Origin: a virus | Strand: one strand, 5' to 3' | DNA length: 42,181 nt | IMG/VR virus record: IMGVR_UViG_3300006802_000185 | Span: 1-42,181 of that record | Shown: piece after piece, positions 1,148 through 30,588 of the stretch | Layout of the letters: every line of letters begins with the position of its first letter | Numbering within the stretch: position 1 is the first letter of the stretch | Program-made: the position numbers and the translations under genes | The notes under the pieces: model-generated | The model's database searches: none | The model's input: the letters and a program-made list of their open reading frames with translations, nothing else | What the model was told of the DNA's origin: nothing

Positions 1148-3586
1148 ATGAAATTTTATACTAACGTAACAAGAAAGGGCAATAGTATCCTCTATTGCGG
1201 ATATAACAACAATCAAAGGATACTCGAGAAAGTTCCTTTTCGACCAGTTCTATTTGTCGAATCATCTCAAGCAAAGGGAACTTATCGATCCTTGTACGGT
1301 CAAAAACTTGAACCAATCTTGTTTGAAGACATGCGTTCGGCAAGTGATTTTCTAAAAAAATATGATCACGTTGACAATTTTACTGTGCATGGCATGCAAA
1401 ATTTTGTATACCAATTTATCGCAGCAAAATTTCCTAACGAAGTAACCTTTGATAGAGAAGCAATCAATGTATGCACAATTGACATTGAGGTTGCATCAGA
1501 TCAGGGGTTTCCTTTACCAGACGAAGCAAAACATGAAGTAATATCCATAACATGTAAAAACAATAAAGATAAAAAGTATCATGTTTGGGGACTGTATGAT
1601 TATGATGTTGAAAAAACTGAGATGGACGTTGAATACTACTGGGCAGAATCAGAACAGCAATTGCTACAAAAATTTTTAAAATGGTGGAATGATCCCTTTA
1701 CCAGACCTGACGTCGTCACTGGTTGGAACACTAGACTCTTCGATATTCCATATCTTGTTAATAGAATTAGAAACGTTCTTGGCGAACAGGCAGTTAAAAA
1801 ACTTTCTCCTTGGGGAATTGTTTCAGACAGCAAAGCGATAACTCGTCTTGGTCAGGAAGCAATTATCTACGAACTAGAAGGTATTGCTAATCTAGACTAC
1901 TACGATTTGTTTGATAAGTTTGGGCGATTAACATATGGCGAGCAAGAATCATATAAACTAGATCATATTGCTAATGTAGTTCTTGGAGAGAAAAAGTTAT
2001 CTTATGAAGAGTTCGGTAATCTTCATACTCTTTATCGCGAAGATTTTCAAAAGTTTATTGACTACAATATTAAAGACGTAGAACTTGTTGATCGTCTCGA
2101 AGAAAAGATGGGATTGATTACTCTTGCCATGACTATGGCATACAAGGCAAAGGCAAACTATAAGGATGCTTTTGGGACGACCAACATATGGGACTCTGTA
2201 ATATACAACGAACTCCTTCCAAAAAATATTGTTGTTCCCCCAAAGGTTGCTAAAAGCAAAGCAACCATAGTCGGTGGTTATGTGAAAGAACCTGTTATTG
2301 GTATGCACGAGTGGGTCTGTTCTTTTGACTTAAACTCTCTGTATCCTAATATTATCGTACAGTACAATATGTCACCAGAAACTTTGACATATCAAGAAGA
2401 CGGCGACTTTACTATTGCTGCTAATGGAACAAAGTATCGGAAAGATGTTGAGGGTATTATCCCAAAGGTAATTAAAAAATTCTACATTGATCGCGTCGAC
2501 GCAAAAAATAAGATGCTCGAAGCAAAAAAAGAATATGAAAAAACACCAACGAAAAAGTTAGCAAATGATATAACAATCTATGACAACCAACAAATGGCAG
2601 TCAAGATTCTTATGAACTCTCTTTATGGTGCTCTTGCGAATCGATGGTTTCGTTACTTCGATCTCAAAATTGCTGAGGCAGTTACTACTTCCGGTCAACG
2701 TGCTATTCTCTGTGCAGAAAAATCAGTAAACAATGAGATGCAGAAACTGCTTGGGACTAAACATGATTATGTTATTGCGATTGATACTGATTCAGTTTAT
2801 ATTAATATGTCTCCCCTGGTTAGTGCACATAAACCTGCAAACCCAGTAAAATATTTGGATAAAGTTTGTGAGCATTTCGAAAAAGTTATTGCGGAAGATT
2901 ATGTTTCTCTAGCTCAAGAAACAAATGCATATGAAAATCGTATGGTTATGAAACGAGAAGCGATCGCTGATCGTGGCATATGGACAGCAAAGAAGAGATA
3001 TATTCTGAACGTTCATAATAACGAGGGAGTGCAGTATGCTCAACCAAAACTTAAAATCATGGGAATCGAAGCAGTCAAGTCAAGCACCCCACAGATATGT
3101 CGCGAAAAATTAAAAACAATTTTTACAGTAATCATGCAAGGTAACGAATCAGATACACAAGAGTTCATTTCAGAGTTTAAGTCTCAATTTAGAAACCTTG
3201 CACCAGAAGAAGTTGCTTTTCCTAGATCAGTAAAGCATTTTACAAAATTCCATTCGCCCAAAACAATCTACATTAAGGGAACGCCAATACATTGTCGTGG
3301 GTCTTTATTGTACAATAAGTATTTGAAAGAGTATAAACTTGAACGAAAATATGATGTTATAAAAGATGGAGAGAAAATTAAATTCTTATATCTTAAAGAA
3401 CCAAATCATTTCTTTGAAAACGTCATCGCTTTTCCTGGTGCATTACCATTAGAATTTAATTTACATAAACACGTCGACTATGATGTTATGTTTGATAAAG
3501 CATTCTTAGAACCACTAAGACCTATTCTTGATTCTATTAGTTGGACAGAGGAACCTGTATCTGATTTGTCAGCATTTTTGGTGTAG
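1148..3586 (+). CDS. 43: family B DNA polymerase, T4 gp43-like
   Basis: Replicative DNA polymerase with 3'-5' proofreading, 812 aa (T4 gp43 is about 898). The exonuclease motifs are DIEVAS (about 112), GWNTRLFDIPYL (Exo II, about 193-204) and YNIKDVE (Exo III, about 306-312). The polymerase motifs are motif A FDLNSLYPN (about 393-401), motif B KILMNSLYGAL (about 486-496), motif C DTDS (about 546) and KKRYI further on. All catalytic Asp/Glu residues are present, so it should be active. The C-terminus, DLSAFLV, matches the position and character of the sliding-clamp-binding tail of T4/RB69 polymerases. Two modification enzymes in this window share a very similar tail. There is no clear Shine-Dalgarno at 1148. 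The primase-like gene follows. Confidence 0.97.
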   Translation: MKFYTNVTRKGNSILYCGYNNNQRILEKVPFRPVLFVESSQAKGTYRSLYGQKLEPILFEDMRSASDFLKKYDHVDNFTVHGMQNFVYQFIAAKFPNEVTFDREAINVCTIDIEVASDQGFPLPDEAKHEVISITCKNNKDKKYHVWGLYDYDVEKTEMDVEYYWAESEQQLLQKFLKWWNDPFTRPDVVTGWNTRLFDIPYLVNRIRNVLGEQAVKKLSPWGIVSDSKAITRLGQEAIIYELEGIANLDYYDLFDKFGRLTYGEQESYKLDHIANVVLGEKKLSYEEFGNLHTLYREDFQKFIDYNIKDVELVDRLEEKMGLITLAMTMAYKAKANYKDAFGTTNIWDSVIYNELLPKNIVVPPKVAKSKATIVGGYVKEPVIGMHEWVCSFDLNSLYPNIIVQYNMSPETLTYQEDGDFTIAANGTKYRKDVEGIIPKVIKKFYIDRVDAKNKMLEAKKEYEKTPTKKLANDITIYDNQQMAVKILMNSLYGALANRWFRYFDLKIAEAVTTSGQRAILCAEKSVNNEMQKLLGTKHDYVIAIDTDSVYINMSPLVSAHKPANPVKYLDKVCEHFEKVIAEDYVSLAQETNAYENRMVMKREAIADRGIWTAKKRYILNVHNNEGVQYAQPKLKIMGIEAVKSSTPQICREKLKTIFTVIMQGNESDTQEFISEFKSQFRNLAPEEVAFPRSVKHFTKFHSPKTIYIKGTPIHCRGSLLYNKYLKEYKLERKYDVIKDGEKIKFLYLKEPNHFFENVIAFPGALPLEFNLHKHVDYDVMFDKAFLEPLRPILDSISWTEEPVSDLSAFLV

Positions 3587-9688: not shown

Positions 9689-10437
9689 CTGCCGACATAT
9701 ACTATAACACCAAGATAAAAACAACAGTTAATATTCATGACGGTAATGATTGTAATTTTTCTTGGAAAGAAAACGGTTTTCAAATAGTACCTCACAAAAC
9801 TAATTTTTCTGATTGGGATAATGTTGATAACTATAACCAATATTATCACGAAATGATAGATTTAGTTAGAGAACAAACTGACGCAAAATTAATCATGGCG
9901 TCAACGGTTGTTCGTAGAAGTCCAGAATGGCAATCTAAAAACCCTCTTTGGGGTCCACTTCAATTGGTGCACTCAGATCATGGTAGTGGATTCAAAGATT
10001 ATGTTTTCGAGTACAGAAAAACTAGACCAGAACCTGATGCTTACTATGGGTCAGGATGGGAAGATATTTACAAATGGTGTAATCGAGTTGTTTGTTTTCA
10101 GATATGGAGAAATTTAGGACCAACCCATGTCTCTTATCCTATTGCTTTTTGTGATTCAAAATCTATTGATAAATCACAGATCTTTGAAACCGTTGTTGAT
10201 GTACAGCAATCTGACGAAAGAACGCACCCGTTGACTCTTTCTAGATTAAAACCAATTGGATCAAAACATAAATGGTATTGGTGGGATAATTTGACTGACG
10301 ACAAAGTGATATTGTTCAGAACGTATGATTCTGATATTGAAAATTATCGAGCGTTCCACACAGCATTTGAACATCCAGAACCTGGACGTGCAGATCGTTC
10401 TTCTGTAGACTTAAGAGTATATTGTTTTTATGAATAA
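9673..10437 (+). CDS. CmcJ/NvfI-type oxygenase-like protein, 254 aa
   Basis: The protein resembles the CmcJ/NvfI hydroxylase-like family. An HxD pair occurs in LVHSDHG (H100, D102). Then come WCNRVVCFQIWRNLG, the long loop with WYWWDNLTDDKVILFRTYD, and RAFHTAFEHPEP (H229) followed by RSSVDLRVYCFYE at the C-terminus, where the Arg could bind 2-oxoglutarate. Together these give an HxD...H...R non-heme iron site. It overlaps the nucleotidyltransferase of the DNA-modification cassette by 8 bases, so it may act in the same pathway, for example on an already modified base or sugar. That role is inferred from position only. Confidence 0.55.
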   Translation: MGSPLTADIYYNTKIKTTVNIHDGNDCNFSWKENGFQIVPHKTNFSDWDNVDNYNQYYHEMIDLVREQTDAKLIMASTVVRRSPEWQSKNPLWGPLQLVHSDHGSGFKDYVFEYRKTRPEPDAYYGSGWEDIYKWCNRVVCFQIWRNLGPTHVSYPIAFCDSKSIDKSQIFETVVDVQQSDERTHPLTLSRLKPIGSKHKWYWWDNLTDDKVILFRTYDSDIENYRAFHTAFEHPEPGRADRSSVDLRVYCFYE

Positions 10438-10852
10438 GAAAATTGTAGGATTCACAGCGAGCACATTTGATCTACTTCATGCGGGACACATTACAATGTT
10501 GCGCGAAGCAAAGGAACAATGTGATTATTTAATTTGCGGACTTCAGGTTGACCCATCTATTGATCGCCCAGGAAAAAATTCACCAGTACAAACTCTTGTT
10601 GAAAGATACACACAACTGTCAGGAGTTAAGTATGTTGATGAAATAATTCCATATCAAACAGAAGACGACCTCATTGATGTGCTTAACATGGTAAACATTG
10701 ATGTTCGAATTATTGGAGCAGAATATAAAGACACTGATTTTACTGGTCGATCTACTTGCGCTTCCCGAGGAATTGAGATATATTTTAACAAAAGAGACCA
10801 TAGATTTTCAACCAGCGATTTGAGACGTAGAGTATATGAATGTAATAATTAG
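10430..10852 (+). CDS. TagD-like cytidylyltransferase (HxGH nucleotidyltransferase)
   Basis: A 140-aa enzyme of the glycerol-3-phosphate cytidylyltransferase/RfaE-like family; TagD is about 130. The N-terminal GFTASTFDLLHAGHI contains the HxGH nucleotide site at residues 17-20. The C-terminal FSTSDLRRRV (about 127-136) is the ISTTxxR-type motif. RIIGAEYKD is the usual central strand. It joins CTP or ATP to a phosphorylated alcohol or sugar, giving a CDP- or ADP-activated donor. It overlaps the TET/JBP dioxygenase gene by 17 bases, which suggests that it prepares the group transferred onto hydroxylated DNA bases by the glycosyltransferase two genes down. The substrate cannot be read from sequence. 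Confidence 0.8.
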   Translation: MNKKIVGFTASTFDLLHAGHITMLREAKEQCDYLICGLQVDPSIDRPGKNSPVQTLVERYTQLSGVKYVDEIIPYQTEDDLIDVLNMVNIDVRIIGAEYKDTDFTGRSTCASRGIEIYFNKRDHRFSTSDLRRRVYECNN

Positions 10853-12149
10853 AGAGTCAAAAATAACTTGCGAACATTTGCTAGGAAAGTTTCTTGACGA
10901 AAATCATTACGACCAAATTATAAATGAAGACACCGATTTGTTTTTTGTAAACAAATCCCTTGGCGGTAATGCTGATGAGTCTAATTGCATTTTTAAATTT
11001 CGCAAGAATGTTTTTACTGCAAGCGAGCAGTCTGGTGCGTATGAAGGATTGGTTGGTGCAGCACAACCAACTCAAAATCGCGGACTCGCTGCTGGACCAA
11101 AAGAAGGTAAGTTAAACAATCGTGACTGGGTGACAGACTATCAGTTTGACATTATGGATTACTTTATTAAAGGTTCTTCCAACAGCGTTACAGGTGTCAG
11201 CGGACTAGACGAGATAGAATTATTTCATAAAAACAATAAAGATTCTGGTGCTAGAGGTATGGTATGGTTGCGCGAAAAAATATCATCTGCCGGATACACT
11301 TATGAAGATTTCTTTCAGAAGAAGTTAGAAGAATGGAAGTCAACCTCTCTTGAAGAAGCAAGAAAAGATGCTGCTTTGGTGAAGAAAACTTATGTTTCTG
11401 ATACATCCTATGCCAATCAGGTAAACTCTGGGATTGCTGGTTTCTATGATCGTTATCCAAGAATTCCTTATGGTAGAGCAACATCTTACACTGCAAAATA
11501 TCCAGAAGTCTTTTCTAAATGCTTTCCCTTTATGCAGAAACTTTCTTGTGAATTTAATGAACTTCTGCCCAACAGATTTTCTGCTCAAAACAACAAAGCA
11601 AATCTGCTGGACGAAAGGTTTCGAGTTGCTGGTACATCAACCCCTTTCACTACCATTACCGTGAATAAAAATTTCCGCACTGCCGCTCACAGGGACGCTG
11701 GTGACCTATCTGAAGGGTTCTCTAATCTAACTGTAGTTGCTAACGAAAAAGAATGGGAAGGAGGATATCTGGTGCTACCTGAATACAGAGTAGCAATTGA
11801 CGTTAGACCTGGTGACCTGCTTCTGATTAATAATCATGAAGGTATTCATGGCAACACTGAAATTAAACCACCTGCTGGTCAAAAACTTGAAGACATGGAA
11901 CGTATCTCTCTCGTTTGCTATTTCCGAGAAAAAATGCTAGAATTAGGCAGTTGGGAATATGAAAGTCACAGATATAATTTTGTTGAGTCCAGACGAAAAG
12001 AACGTAACGATCCAAAATTTAATGGTGTGACTGCAGGTATGTGGTCAAGCGATGAGTGGTATGATTATCTTCGAGATAACGGTGGCGAAGATATGCTACA
12101 GCAATACCACCCGCAAGTTGAAGCAGGAAGTTTAGCAGGATTTCTATGA
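10836..12149 (+). CDS. TET/JBP-family 2OG-Fe(II) DNA dioxygenase, 437 aa
   Basis: Probable DNA base hydroxylase acting on the 5-methyl group of a pyrimidine. The N-terminal 200 residues look like a family-specific extension. The catalytic core begins near 265 with FRVAGTSTPFTTITVNKNF. It carries AHRDAGD with iron ligands H285 and D287, then GGYLVLPEYRVAIDVRPGD, NNHEGIHGN (distal His most likely H338) and ERISLVCYFRE with the 2OG-binding R356. This order matches phage TET/JBP enzymes, some of which are known to oxidise 5-methylcytosine. The C-terminus SLAGFL resembles the polymerase tail (DLSAFLV), a possible clamp docking signal. It overlaps the genes on both sides (17 and 4 bases). T or 5mC is the likely target. 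Confidence 0.8.
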   Translation: MNVIIRESKITCEHLLGKFLDENHYDQIINEDTDLFFVNKSLGGNADESNCIFKFRKNVFTASEQSGAYEGLVGAAQPTQNRGLAAGPKEGKLNNRDWVTDYQFDIMDYFIKGSSNSVTGVSGLDEIELFHKNNKDSGARGMVWLREKISSAGYTYEDFFQKKLEEWKSTSLEEARKDAALVKKTYVSDTSYANQVNSGIAGFYDRYPRIPYGRATSYTAKYPEVFSKCFPFMQKLSCEFNELLPNRFSAQNNKANLLDERFRVAGTSTPFTTITVNKNFRTAAHRDAGDLSEGFSNLTVVANEKEWEGGYLVLPEYRVAIDVRPGDLLLINNHEGIHGNTEIKPPAGQKLEDMERISLVCYFREKMLELGSWEYESHRYNFVESRRKERNDPKFNGVTAGMWSSDEWYDYLRDNGGEDMLQQYHPQVEAGSLAGFL

Positions 12150-12952
12150 TAGATTATCAAATAGCAGTACCAAGTTATAAGAGACCAGTAACAATTCAAA
12201 ACAAAACTTTAAAAGTTTTTGAACAACATAACATTCCTCCTGAAAGAGTTACTATCTGGGTCGCTAATGAAGAAGAGTTTGAGTCGTACGATAAAGCACT
12301 TGGCGATCATAAATATGGACGCAACATAAGCATTGGCGTACCAACTATTGGTGCGCAACGTAACCATATTGAAAAGTCATATCCTGAAGGCACTTACCTT
12401 ATGATGTTTGATGATGACATCGAAGAAGTGCAACGAAGAAAAGACGAGAAAACTCTCGTACCGATTGATGATTTGTATTCTGAAATTATTGAGCAAGGTT
12501 TCAATAAATGCGTAGAAGTTGGTGCTAAAACGTTTGGAATATATGCAGCATCAAATGCATATTTTATGAAGGATCGAGTCTACACTAAACTTTGTTATGT
12601 TATTGCTTCTATGTTTGGTGTTATTGTTGAGCATGATGATTACCTTGCTCGCGTGACCAATCATGGCGAGGACTATGAGTACAGTCTGCGTCAATATGTA
12701 AAGAACGGTGTTTTGTGCAGACTGGACAACTACACTGTTAAAAGCAACTACTACAAAGAAGAAGGTGGGTTACAAACTGTTCGCACTAAAGAATATGTTT
12801 ATGAATCTATCGACAAGATCGCAAAAATGTTTCCGGACCTTTGTACGATGTACATACGAAAGTCCACTGGAAATGCTGAACTGAGACTTAGGGATACCTC
12901 AGGAGGCAGATATCAAAAAGTCGAATCATCCCTTGCTGATTTTCTTGTTTAA
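12146..12952 (+). CDS. TET-associated glycosyltransferase (TAGT-like), 268 aa
   Basis: GT-A-type glycosyltransferase. The N-terminal IAVPSYKRP (residues 6-14) begins the nucleotide-sugar fold. LMMFDDDIEEV carries the metal-binding acidic triplet D89-D91, preceded by GAQRNHI. NHGEDYEYSLR (about 172-182) is the acceptor-side acidic motif. These features and its position directly after a TET/JBP gene, with a 4-base ATGA overlap, fit the TET/JBP-associated glycosyltransferases described from phages, which glycosylate hydroxymethylated pyrimidines in DNA. The C-terminus SLADFLV is nearly the same as the polymerase tail. The stop at 12950-12952 is followed at once by an early-type promoter. Confidence 0.75.
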   Translation: MIDYQIAVPSYKRPVTIQNKTLKVFEQHNIPPERVTIWVANEEEFESYDKALGDHKYGRNISIGVPTIGAQRNHIEKSYPEGTYLMMFDDDIEEVQRRKDEKTLVPIDDLYSEIIEQGFNKCVEVGAKTFGIYAASNAYFMKDRVYTKLCYVIASMFGVIVEHDDYLARVTNHGEDYEYSLRQYVKNGVLCRLDNYTVKSNYYKEEGGLQTVRTKEYVYESIDKIAKMFPDLCTMYIRKSTGNAELRLRDTSGGRYQKVESSLADFLV

Positions 12953-14580: not shown

Positions 14581-14965
14581 ATTTAATGAAGACAAACTCA
14601 TAGAGGAGTTTAAGCGATATGTCGATCAAACATACGACCAACATTATGCAACGGATAAGTACCAAGCGACTGATATCATTATTGATAGTGGTCATGGTAC
14701 TGGGTTTTGCCTTGGAAACGTCATCAAATACGCAAAGAGATATGGGCGCAAAGGCAATCCTGATGAGTGGCGTAAGGATGTGATGAAGATCTTGCATTAT
14801 GCATTGATTCAATTACATATCCACGATCAAGAAAATGTTGAGACATATCCTGTTGCTCCTGGACATCACAATTGGGAACCAAGCGGTTGGACTTCAATTG
14901 ATAATGTAACTCCAGAAGAATGGGATGCAAACAGAAAAAAATATATCGGCGAAGCAAATGGGTAG
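14570..14965 (+). CDS. DUF3310-like (SaV-like) protein, 131 aa
   Basis: Residues about 46-75 read FCLGNVIKYAKRYGRKG...EWRKDVMKILHYAL, the signature of DUF3310 proteins, which are widespread in phages and often described as nucleotide-kinase-like with little proof. The N-terminus is helical and the C-terminus is Trp/Pro-rich. It overlaps the small gene before it and the Dam methylase after it, suggesting one operon reading from the 12954 promoter. Biochemical role unknown. Confidence 0.7.
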   Translation: MNYKFNEDKLIEEFKRYVDQTYDQHYATDKYQATDIIIDSGHGTGFCLGNVIKYAKRYGRKGNPDEWRKDVMKILHYALIQLHIHDQENVETYPVAPGHHNWEPSGWTSIDNVTPEEWDANRKKYIGEANG

Positions 14966-15800
14966 TTTAAAATCTCTAAAGACTCCACTAAGATATCCAG
15001 GTGGAAAATCTAGAGCAACAAAATTTATTTTTGATCATCTGCCTGATAATATATCAGCATATCGTGAACCATTCTTAGGTGGCGGATCAGTAGCAATTGA
15101 GTTCACTAAACGATATCCGGATACTCAGATTTGGGTTAACGATATCTACAAAAATCTCTTTTGCTTCTGGTCACAACTTCAGAAAAACGGAGAAGCACTA
15201 TATAATGCTGTCTTAAATTACAAACTAAAGGCAGAAACATATGAAGATGTTACTCAATCGCATCGAGAACTTTTTCTTGAAAGTAGAGAAGCACTCGGTA
15301 AACCTCTTGATCCTTTTGGGACTGCTGTTCGTTTCTTCATTTGTAATAAGTGCAGTTTTTCTGGTCTTGGGGAGTCTTCAGGGTTTTCTGCAGCTGCCAG
15401 TCAATCTAACTTTTCCAGAAGTAATATCGAGAGACTTCCGCAATATTCTGATTTGATTAAAAATTGGTTGATCACTAATCTAGATTACAAAACAGTCTTA
15501 GTAGATTGTAGAGAAGACGAATTTGTTTTTGCTGATCCTCCTTATGATATTAAGTCAGGATTATATGGCAAGAAAGGTAGTCATCACCTCGGATTTAATC
15601 ACGAGCAATTTGCTGAAGATGCATTTAATTGCAAAGGAAATGTGATGATTACTTATAACTCTAGTCCTGAGATTAGAGGACTCTTTGATGTTTGGCATCA
15701 AAAAGAATGGGACTTGACATATACAATGCATTCAGGTAAAATGTACCGTAAAGATGAGTCCAATAGAAAGGAGTTACTGTTAACGAACTATGAAATTTAA
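14958..15800 (+). CDS. dam: DNA adenine N6-methyltransferase, Dam-like
   Basis: The product is 280 aa, the usual size of Dam (E. coli 278), when started at ATG 14958; an in-frame ATG at 14925 would add 11 residues that the family lacks. LRYPGGKSRAT (residues 11-21) is the D12-class AdoMet motif. EPFLGGGSVAIEF is the FxGxG-type segment. The catalytic motif is FADPPYD (D193-Y196). It would methylate adenine in a short site, probably GATC, for protection or for timing of packaging and repair. It is the second DNA-modifying system in the window, separate from the pyrimidine cassette. It overlaps the genes on both sides. Confidence 0.92.
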   Translation: MGSLKSLKTPLRYPGGKSRATKFIFDHLPDNISAYREPFLGGGSVAIEFTKRYPDTQIWVNDIYKNLFCFWSQLQKNGEALYNAVLNYKLKAETYEDVTQSHRELFLESREALGKPLDPFGTAVRFFICNKCSFSGLGESSGFSAAASQSNFSRSNIERLPQYSDLIKNWLITNLDYKTVLVDCREDEFVFADPPYDIKSGLYGKKGSHHLGFNHEQFAEDAFNCKGNVMITYNSSPEIRGLFDVWHQKEWDLTYTMHSGKMYRKDESNRKELLLTNYEI

Positions 15801-25058: not shown

Positions 25059-25499
25059 ATGATTGTAATACAAATGAACGGACGTTGCGCGCAACAAGCA
25101 AGGATGGAACAGTTTGCGTGCGATGTTATTAATCACTTTTTTCCTCGCGATCTAAAACGTAATGTCCTTGTGGGTATTGACATGGTTAAGAATTTAGAGG
25201 ATAATGATGCTGGAACTTGCGTTGACTATGGCAGTATTGATGGTACACGTATGATCCAAGTGAGTCTTTCCCGCCGATATATCGACGGTGAAGAGAACTT
25301 TGCCTACTCGGCAAAGGAAATTGCCACTACGTTGGCACATGAATTGGTACACGTTAAACAGAACTTGCGAGGCGAACTGAACAATAAACTGCTCAGTGCT
25401 ACGCTAAAACCCAACATGACTGAGGATTATTATCTCCGAATGCCATGGGAAGCGGAAGCGTTTGACCTACAAGACTTTCTGGTTGATTTGTACTGGTAA
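25059..25499 (+). CDS. HEXXH zinc metallopeptidase-like protein, 146 aa
   Basis: TLAHELVHVKQNLRG contains the zinc motif H94-E-L-V-H98. A downstream YYLRMPWEAEAFDLQ supplies a Glu that could be the third ligand, as in gluzincin- or IrrE/SprT-like small proteases. The N-terminal half (VIQMNGRCAQQARMEQFACD) is helical. The protein likely cleaves a host or phage protein in the cytoplasm. No signal peptide is visible. The promoter -10 ends seven bases before its ATG, so the message may be leaderless. The C-terminus FDLQDFLVDLYW includes a clamp-tail-like DLQDFLV, though not at the very end. Confidence 0.65.
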   Translation: MIVIQMNGRCAQQARMEQFACDVINHFFPRDLKRNVLVGIDMVKNLEDNDAGTCVDYGSIDGTRMIQVSLSRRYIDGEENFAYSAKEIATTLAHELVHVKQNLRGELNNKLLSATLKPNMTEDYYLRMPWEAEAFDLQDFLVDLYW

Positions 25500-29364: not shown

Positions 29365-30588
29365 ATGCTATCATTTGCAGACACATTAACAGAGCAAAAA
29401 AATACGCACATGACTCATATCGAGGACAAAGTGCTATATGGCGGTGTTAAAGGCACACGTCAAGCAATTTTTGCTCTGCGTGATCTTCGCGATATGTTAG
29501 GAGGCAAGAAAGAGGGAAGTGTATCAGTGAAGTGGGACGGTGCTCCCGCAATCTTCGCTGGTATTGATCCCAGGGACGGGCAGTTCTTTGTTGCTAAGAA
29601 GGGTATCTTTAACAAGAACCCAAAGGTCTATAAGACCAATGCAGAGATCGACGCTGATACGTCAGGCGATCTTTCTGCCAAACTGAAAGACGCTCTGAAA
29701 TATTTACCTGCTTTAGATATCAAAGGGGTAATTCAGGGCGACTTTCTGTTTGGGCGCGGAGACTTATCCACCGAAACAATTGATGGTCAAAAGTATGTGA
29801 CTTTTCACCCAAACACTATTGTGTATGCTGTACCTTACGAACAGTCGGCAGTTATACGCAGGGCAAAAATCGGTATTGTGTGGCATACTACATATACTGG
29901 TAGAACATTCGAGACTATGAAAGCATCTTATGGTGTGAACGTGAAGGCATTGAAGAAGTCTTCTAATGTTTGGTCTCAAGACGCAATGCTGCGTAATTTA
30001 ACCAGCGCAACCATGACTAAAAGGGAGACAGAAGATGTTAATGAAACTTTGGCAGAAATTGGTAGGATCTTCAACCAAATCTCAGGAAGTACCCTCCGAG
30101 AACTTGAAGGAAACCAAACCCTCGCCCAGCACATCGAAACCTACAACAACACATTCGTCCGTAAAGGAGAAATCATCGGAAACACCGTCGCGCACACGGA
30201 AAAACTCATCCGATGGATCAAAAGCAAGTACGGGAAAGAAATCGCCCAGCGAAAAACCCAAGCGGGGAAGACCTCGCAAAGACAAAAGCGAGACGAACTC
30301 CTCAACTTCTTCTCGCTCAAAAACAAAGTCAACTTAATACAGATGTTTGAGTTACAAAAATTAATTGTAACAGCAAAGTTAAAACTTATAAATAAATTGA
30401 ATAAACTTGGGAATGTAGATACCTTTGTAAAAACTCGCAAAGGATTTAAGGTAACGGGTGCTGAAGGATTCGTTGCCGTTGACCGACTAGGTGGTGATGC
30501 GGTAAAGATTGTTGATAGAATGGAATTTTCATACAACAACTTTTCGCCTGATATTTTGAAGGGATGGGATAAACCGACGAGGAAATAA
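29365..30588 (+). CDS. ligase-like nucleotidyltransferase with capsid-targeting-like N-terminus, 407 aa
   Basis: SVSVKWDGAPAIF contains KWDG at K56-G59, the motif I (KxDG) of ATP-dependent ligases and capping enzymes, with K56 as the adenylylation residue. GVIQGDFLFGRGD (about 119-131) is motif III-like. AEGFVAVDRLGGDAVKIVDR (about 368-387) matches motifs IV-V. It probably transfers AMP, as an RNA or DNA ligase. The first residues MLSFADTLTEQ resemble T4 capsid-targeting peptides, cut after L/I-x-E, so it may be packaged and injected. It is the first gene of a run of basic and enzyme-like late proteins. Ligation itself is unproved. Confidence 0.6.
   Translation: MLSFADTLTEQKNTHMTHIEDKVLYGGVKGTRQAIFALRDLRDMLGGKKEGSVSVKWDGAPAIFAGIDPRDGQFFVAKKGIFNKNPKVYKTNAEIDADTSGDLSAKLKDALKYLPALDIKGVIQGDFLFGRGDLSTETIDGQKYVTFHPNTIVYAVPYEQSAVIRRAKIGIVWHTTYTGRTFETMKASYGVNVKALKKSSNVWSQDAMLRNLTSATMTKRETEDVNETLAEIGRIFNQISGSTLRELEGNQTLAQHIETYNNTFVRKGEIIGNTVAHTEKLIRWIKSKYGKEIAQRKTQAGKTSQRQKRDELLNFFSLKNKVNLIQMFELQKLIVTAKLKLINKLNKLGNVDTFVKTRKGFKVTGAEGFVAVDRLGGDAVKIVDRMEFSYNNFSPDILKGWDKPTRK

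Follow-up and report, generated by a model that had tools for sequence, protein, structure and literature searches.

In a 42,181-nucleotide stretch of viral DNA (IMG/VR record IMGVR_UViG_3300006802_000185, positions 1 to 42,181; here called the window), a T4-type DNA polymerase, a TET/JBP-type dioxygenase (TET) and a TET-associated glycosyltransferase (TAGT) all end in the same kind of short C-terminal tail. This shared tail is very probably a portable sliding-clamp-binding motif (SCBM), which would tether DNA-modification enzymes of unrelated folds to the gp45 clamp in phages with a T4-type replisome. For the window TET and TAGT, such tethering, already proposed in the initial annotation, appears well supported at the sequence level by tail conservation, by co-occurrence with a clamp, and by co-divergence with the polymerase tail. 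The features concerned are:

1148..3586, + strand: T4-type family B DNA polymerase (gp43-like), 812 amino acids (Pfam PF00136/PF03104; phrog_262, E=0)
3563..3583, + strand: polymerase tail DLSAFLV, at the site of the T4/RB69 gp45-binding peptide (T4 gp43 ends KASLDFLFG)
10836..12149, + strand: TET/JBP-type 2-oxoglutarate-Fe(II) dioxygenase, 437 amino acids (PF12851 Tet_JBP, 1.7e-25)
12129..12146, + strand: TET tail SLAGFL, a proposed SCBM (from sequence)
12146..12952, + strand: TAGT, 268 amino acids (PF20691, 8.2e-15)
12929..12949, + strand: TAGT tail SLADFLV, a proposed SCBM (from sequence)
14925..15800, + strand: D12-class DNA methyltransferase (Dam-like), tail-less, ending NYEI

All three tails lie at the extreme C-terminus of the genes to which the initial annotation had assigned them (polymerase ...EEPVSDLSAFLV, TET ...QVEAGSLAGFL, TAGT ...KVESSLADFLV), and its enzyme identities hold as well: the polymerase through PF00136 and phrog_262, the other two through Pfam scores above the cut-offs (TET 89.6 bits against 34.9, TAGT 55.7 bits against 27.5). 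Its comparison of the polymerase tail with the T4/RB69 clamp-binding site was also right, since T4 gp43 ends in its own version of the tail at the same place. The TET and TAGT genes are adjacent, the TAGT start codon overlapping the TET stop (ATGA, 12146-12149).

Strength and specificity of the tail signal

A position-specific scoring matrix (PSSM) built from polymerase tails only was used to rank the C-termini of open reading frames (ORFs). Among the 61 window ORFs the first three places went to TAGT (5.2), the polymerase (4.3) and TET (2.0), with the next ORF at -3.4; by chance, two named ORFs would take the top two places among the other 60 with a probability of about 6e-4. Polymerase, TAGT and TET were again the top three in the near-complete related contigs G001, G002 and G003 (134-155 kb, about 190-200 ORFs each), and in G005, which yielded no polymerase, the first two of 203 ORFs were TAGT and TET. 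Across 3,763 distinct ORFs there were 265 C-terminal matches with a score of at least 7, where scores at internal positions of these proteins predict 1.15. In a set of 6,154 ORFs the corresponding figures were 500 and 4.75; the loci behind both counts were fetched around tail-bearing genes (polymerase, TET, TAGT), so these totals measure C-terminal specificity rather than genome-wide frequency.

The tail is also conserved at the protein level, as is seen from its many synonymous encodings: the polymerase tail TLEDFF occurs in 23 polymerases in 18 DNA spellings, a diversity that excludes copied DNA or overlap artefacts. TET and TAGT tails covary (54 pairs, 0 of 5000 shuffles), a result from which phylogeny was not removed and which is not used as proof; covariation between polymerase and TET (17 pairs) or TAGT (10 pairs) tails on the same contig was not significant. 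Two kinds of candidate carrier were set aside: window ORF 25059-25499 (DLQDFLVDLYW) as weak or not terminal, and baseplate hub protein ends (GMQNFF, GIDDFF; e.g., L010:45099-45806) as weak look-alikes.

Distribution of the tail

Used alone to look for close relatives, the TET sequence retrieved nothing but an identical contig, and an alignment query was needed to reach relatives; a scan with the TET alignment gave at least 514, of which 80 were kept. With distinct C-terminal ends counted, 93/93 polymerases, 51/51 TAGTs (including one borderline look-alike, ELEDLLP in S-CBWM1) and 101/109 TETs from related loci have the tail core, the TET exceptions being fragments or odd frames, the non-T4-like S-CBWM1 and HTVC112P, and Caulobacter phage Cr30. 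The consensus is [ST]-L-E-x-F-F, with other forms in Ackermannviridae. In all families zero to two residues follow the core, and the linker between it and the last conserved block varies in length (3-9 residues in TET, 6-14 in TAGT). Comparison of TET and TAGT C-termini had been put forward in the initial annotation as a refutation test; the tail proved to be near-universal where there is a T4-type clamp, not missing in most homologues. A 109-amino-acid ORF directly 5' of TET (L179:8347-8676; G001 129118-129447) carries a tail as well, AGSLEEFMV.

A gp45-type clamp is encoded by the related contigs G001-G005, by C48C1, and by DLP_6, Cr30, SFP10, 44RR and Vibrio phage 1.244.A. The TET, TAGT or amino acid:DNA transferase (ADDT) proteins of Donny, Altadena, Lilmac1015, HTVC112P, P12024L, Montesquieu and JAMaL lack the tail, and searches of these records for a T4-type clamp came up empty, which does not prove absence; S-CBWM1 likewise has a tail-less TET and no detectable T4-type polymerase or clamp, with the same limit on the empty search. 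To judge from these records, tails seem to be confined to phages in which both a T4-type clamp and a T4-type polymerase can be detected.

In two Ackermannviridae the tails of modification enzymes co-diverge with that of the polymerase. The polymerase of Salmonella phage SFP10 has the tail VNLLSMM, and a scan of 222 ORFs with this sequence alone placed the polymerase, a 70-amino-acid protein, ADDT (VNLMSLL), HMUDK_hel (SVNLLERL) and HMUD2 (VSLLGLL) in the top five; that three named enzymes fall among the next four ORFs after the polymerase has p ~2e-6, the resemblance of ADDT and HMUD2 having been spotted by eye before the scan and that of HMUDK_hel having emerged from it. The polymerase of Vibrio phage 1.244.A has the ending KKARKLW, and exactly 4 of 238 ORFs end in [KR][KR]LW (0.019 expected): the polymerase, HMUD2, ADDT and HMUDK_hel. 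In both phages HMUD2 and HMUDK_hel are the two 5-hydroxymethyldeoxyuridine (5hmdU) DNA kinases. SFP10 is presumably related to phage ViI and, we assume, bears a 5hmdU-derived base of the kind found there. In ViI itself, which has the same kind of modification cluster, such a base is experimentally established (PMC6449724). In 44RR2.8t the list is led by a weak HMUDK_hel match (17.2 bits, below cut-off) and a short ORF ending NTLDFLM, which may be gp33. The second-best SFP10 protein (phrog_4789; 30142-30354, minus strand; L589:10142-10354) ends KVNLLSLMSK and is a possible clamp client.

Judged by family name, most of the carriers found beyond TET and TAGT appear to be DNA-modification enzymes of unrelated folds. 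By a looser core, the tail is found in 72/72 C5-cytosine methylases (54 with a score of at least 5) and 46/51 D12 adenine (Dam) methylases (42 with a score of at least 5). Clustering of tail-bearing ORFs added ADDT (PF18724) with an adjacent GNAT acetyltransferase, HMUDK-domain proteins (PF18723), a phrog_842 glucosyltransferase, a GT1 glycosyltransferase and the phrog_13881 family; an HNH protein, a SinI-like ORF and small ORFs are carriers not clearly involved in DNA modification. The phrog_13881 proteins (L333:2007-2990, L113:8657-9754, L157:18329-19360) are candidate DNA-modification enzymes; part of phrog_17781, to which an HMUDK-domain protein matches as well, is related to this family. 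The 132-amino-acid SinI restriction-endonuclease match (L101:12418-12816) lies directly 3' of the polymerase gene and ends NTIEDFFV.

Probable clamp docking and its alternatives

In T4 the tails of gp43, gp55 and gp33 bind gp45, and one can stand in for another (PMC2988020); such tails have been named sliding-clamp-binding motifs (PMC7892883). PDB 1b8h and 6drt are clamp entries. By analogy with this biochemistry, and with the co-purification of T4 alpha-glucosyltransferase (alpha-GT) with gp45 (PMC13216743), gp45 would be the partner of the tails described here. The window TET and TAGT would then dock on clamps on newly made DNA through a tail that, after a short variable linker, repeats the gp45-docking motif of the phage's own polymerase; clamp-bound TET would hydroxylate bases, which TAGT would then glycosylate. 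Clamp binding may raise local concentration or processivity, and modification may follow the fork or take place on clamps left behind it, the timing relative to the fork, and its importance, being matters of inference. An extension of this model, to which we give an even chance, is that several enzymes belonging to a single pathway (a hydroxylase with a glycosyltransferase, or 5hmdU DNA kinases with ADDT) occupy the three sites of one gp45 ring together with the polymerase and pass the base along as the DNA leaves the fork, the tail being a portable tag that marks further modification enzymes.

Another possibility, somewhat doubtful but to be taken seriously, is that the tails do bind the clamp and merely raise residence on clamp-loaded DNA at any time, or keep the enzymes on phage DNA and off that of the host. 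Two observations in T4 favor this: it is through the same motif that gp55 and gp33 serve late transcription, on clamps distant from the fork (PMC2988020, PMC7892883), and the alpha:beta glucosylation ratio is explained by expression strength, not by the interaction of alpha-GT with gp45 (PMC13216743). This explanation shares its clamp-binding step with the tethering model, and the present data do not set it apart from fork coupling. It is improbable that the tails share with the polymerase tail some partner other than gp45, such as another replisome protein: what the sequences display is only a match to the polymerase tail, but the T4/RB69 gp43 tail binds gp45 and can be exchanged with those of gp55 and gp33 (PMC2988020), and the carriers co-occur with gp45. 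Chance or convergence, whether of short hydrophobic C-termini that share no function or of a C-terminal degradation or solubility signal, is very improbable; the motif is short, and baseplate hub and other unrelated proteins end in weaker look-alikes, but the excess of 265 matches over 1.15, the protein-level conservation across many codon spellings and the change of modification-enzyme tails along with the polymerase tail (VNLLSMM, KARKLW) all stand against it. That the tails are by-products of gene overlap, as the ATGA shared by TET and TAGT might suggest, or of recombination at gene ends that copies DNA from one gene to another, is scarcely credible: the overlap covers only the last tail base and the stop, the DNA spellings differ, and the DLP_6 TET keeps its tail though the next gene encodes an unrelated peptide deformylase.

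A number of observations weigh against clamp tethering. The Cr30 TET tail is shortened and degenerate (TGATLF), and within contigs the similarity of polymerase and TET tails is no higher than in shuffled pairs. The Dam proteins of the window, G001 and G002 have no tail, so that not every modification enzyme would be tethered, and the C5 methylase of XG4, a clamp-encoding phage, is also without one. Among alpha-glucosyltransferases (AGT, PF11440) the picture is mixed, with the core in 34/55, and in most ADDTs of viral contigs the ending is a weaker variant, GLExF. In T4 itself alpha-GT, beta-glucosyltransferase (beta-GT) and Dam lack the tail, and the glucosylation ratio noted above also counts here. 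Finally, gp45 lies outside the 42-kb window, which is a fragment.

As separate observations, the Dam homologue of C48C1 ends NYSEQGESTLDAFFG, and the presence of the tail there and in most relatives, together with its absence from the window, G001 and G002, amounts to gain or loss of a module; T4-type AGTs (L256, which is T4, and the L295-L332 group) lack the tail, and other AGT homologues have it.

The tails can be set beside several known systems. They resemble the T4 SCBM of gp43, gp55, gp33 and DNA ligase in their extreme C-terminal position (as in gp43, gp55 and gp33), the variable linker before them, the gp45-type clamp and the hydrophobic-acidic core (S-L-D-F-L-F in T4 gp43; gp55 ends PSLDFLYEAND), and differ in being carried by TET, TAGT, C5 and N6 methylases, AGT, ADDT and 5hmdU kinases. 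The literature searched held no report of an SCBM on such modification enzymes, an earlier mention in Iyer 2013 or Burke 2021 (phage TET/TAGT) being possible. T4 alpha-GT, too, modifies DNA and associates physically with the clamp: it co-purifies with gp45, which a C-terminal His tag does not prevent, whereas beta-GT does not co-purify (PMC13216743, in which the interaction is credited to Sommer 2004, known here through that citation). However, alpha-GT has no C-terminal SCBM, whereas here a polymerase-type tail is explicit across many families. The Dnmt1-PCNA pair is similar in that a DNA-modifying enzyme is thought to be recruited through a clamp to newly replicated DNA (PMC9690074), and dissimilar in being eukaryotic, concerned with maintenance methylation, and built on an unrelated enzyme and motif. 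Known phage TET/TAGT systems (Pfam Tet_JBP and TAGT) share the adjacent genes, both above Pfam cut-offs; those of actinophages and pelagiphages differ in having neither a tail nor a detectable T4-type clamp.

If the tethering model is correct, it offers a testable rule, that the last seven residues of a phage polymerase predict which other phage proteins modify its DNA. It would also explain how modification of a fast-replicating genome outpaces host restriction, give the T4 alpha-GT/gp45 observation a place in a general principle, and turn the tail into a simple search for further hypermodification enzymes.

Enzymes, substrates and neighboring gene

The HxD...H...R residues of TET (H285-x-D287...H338...R356) are unchanged in the alignment of 14 relatives. 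Sequence search found no phage TET structure, and an AlphaFold2 model was made from an alignment built from the window and viral-contig loci. The model has a mean predicted local distance difference test score (pLDDT) of 77.6, and its best Foldseek structural matches are CcTet, TET2 and NgTet1 (fungal, human and Naegleria TET enzymes, respectively). Its last nine residues, 429-437, fall below a pLDDT of 50 after a well-predicted helical end, as might be expected of a docking peptide. The corresponding TAGT model (mean pLDDT 50) is too poor for use on tail flexibility.

Which base might TET act on? Candidates are thymine, the JBP substrate, and 5-methylcytosine made by the host. No PF00145 C5 methylase was found in nine TET-phage records (G000-G005, C48C1, Cr30, DLP_6), and a thymidylate synthase-type enzyme is present, among the TET-phage records, in Cr30 only. 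TAGT is a putative transferase of sugar to hydroxymethylated DNA bases, a role suggested by its TAGT domain match. Just 5' of TET (window 10430-10852) is a gene for a cytidylyltransferase-like protein (PF01467), which possibly makes the activated donor for TAGT.
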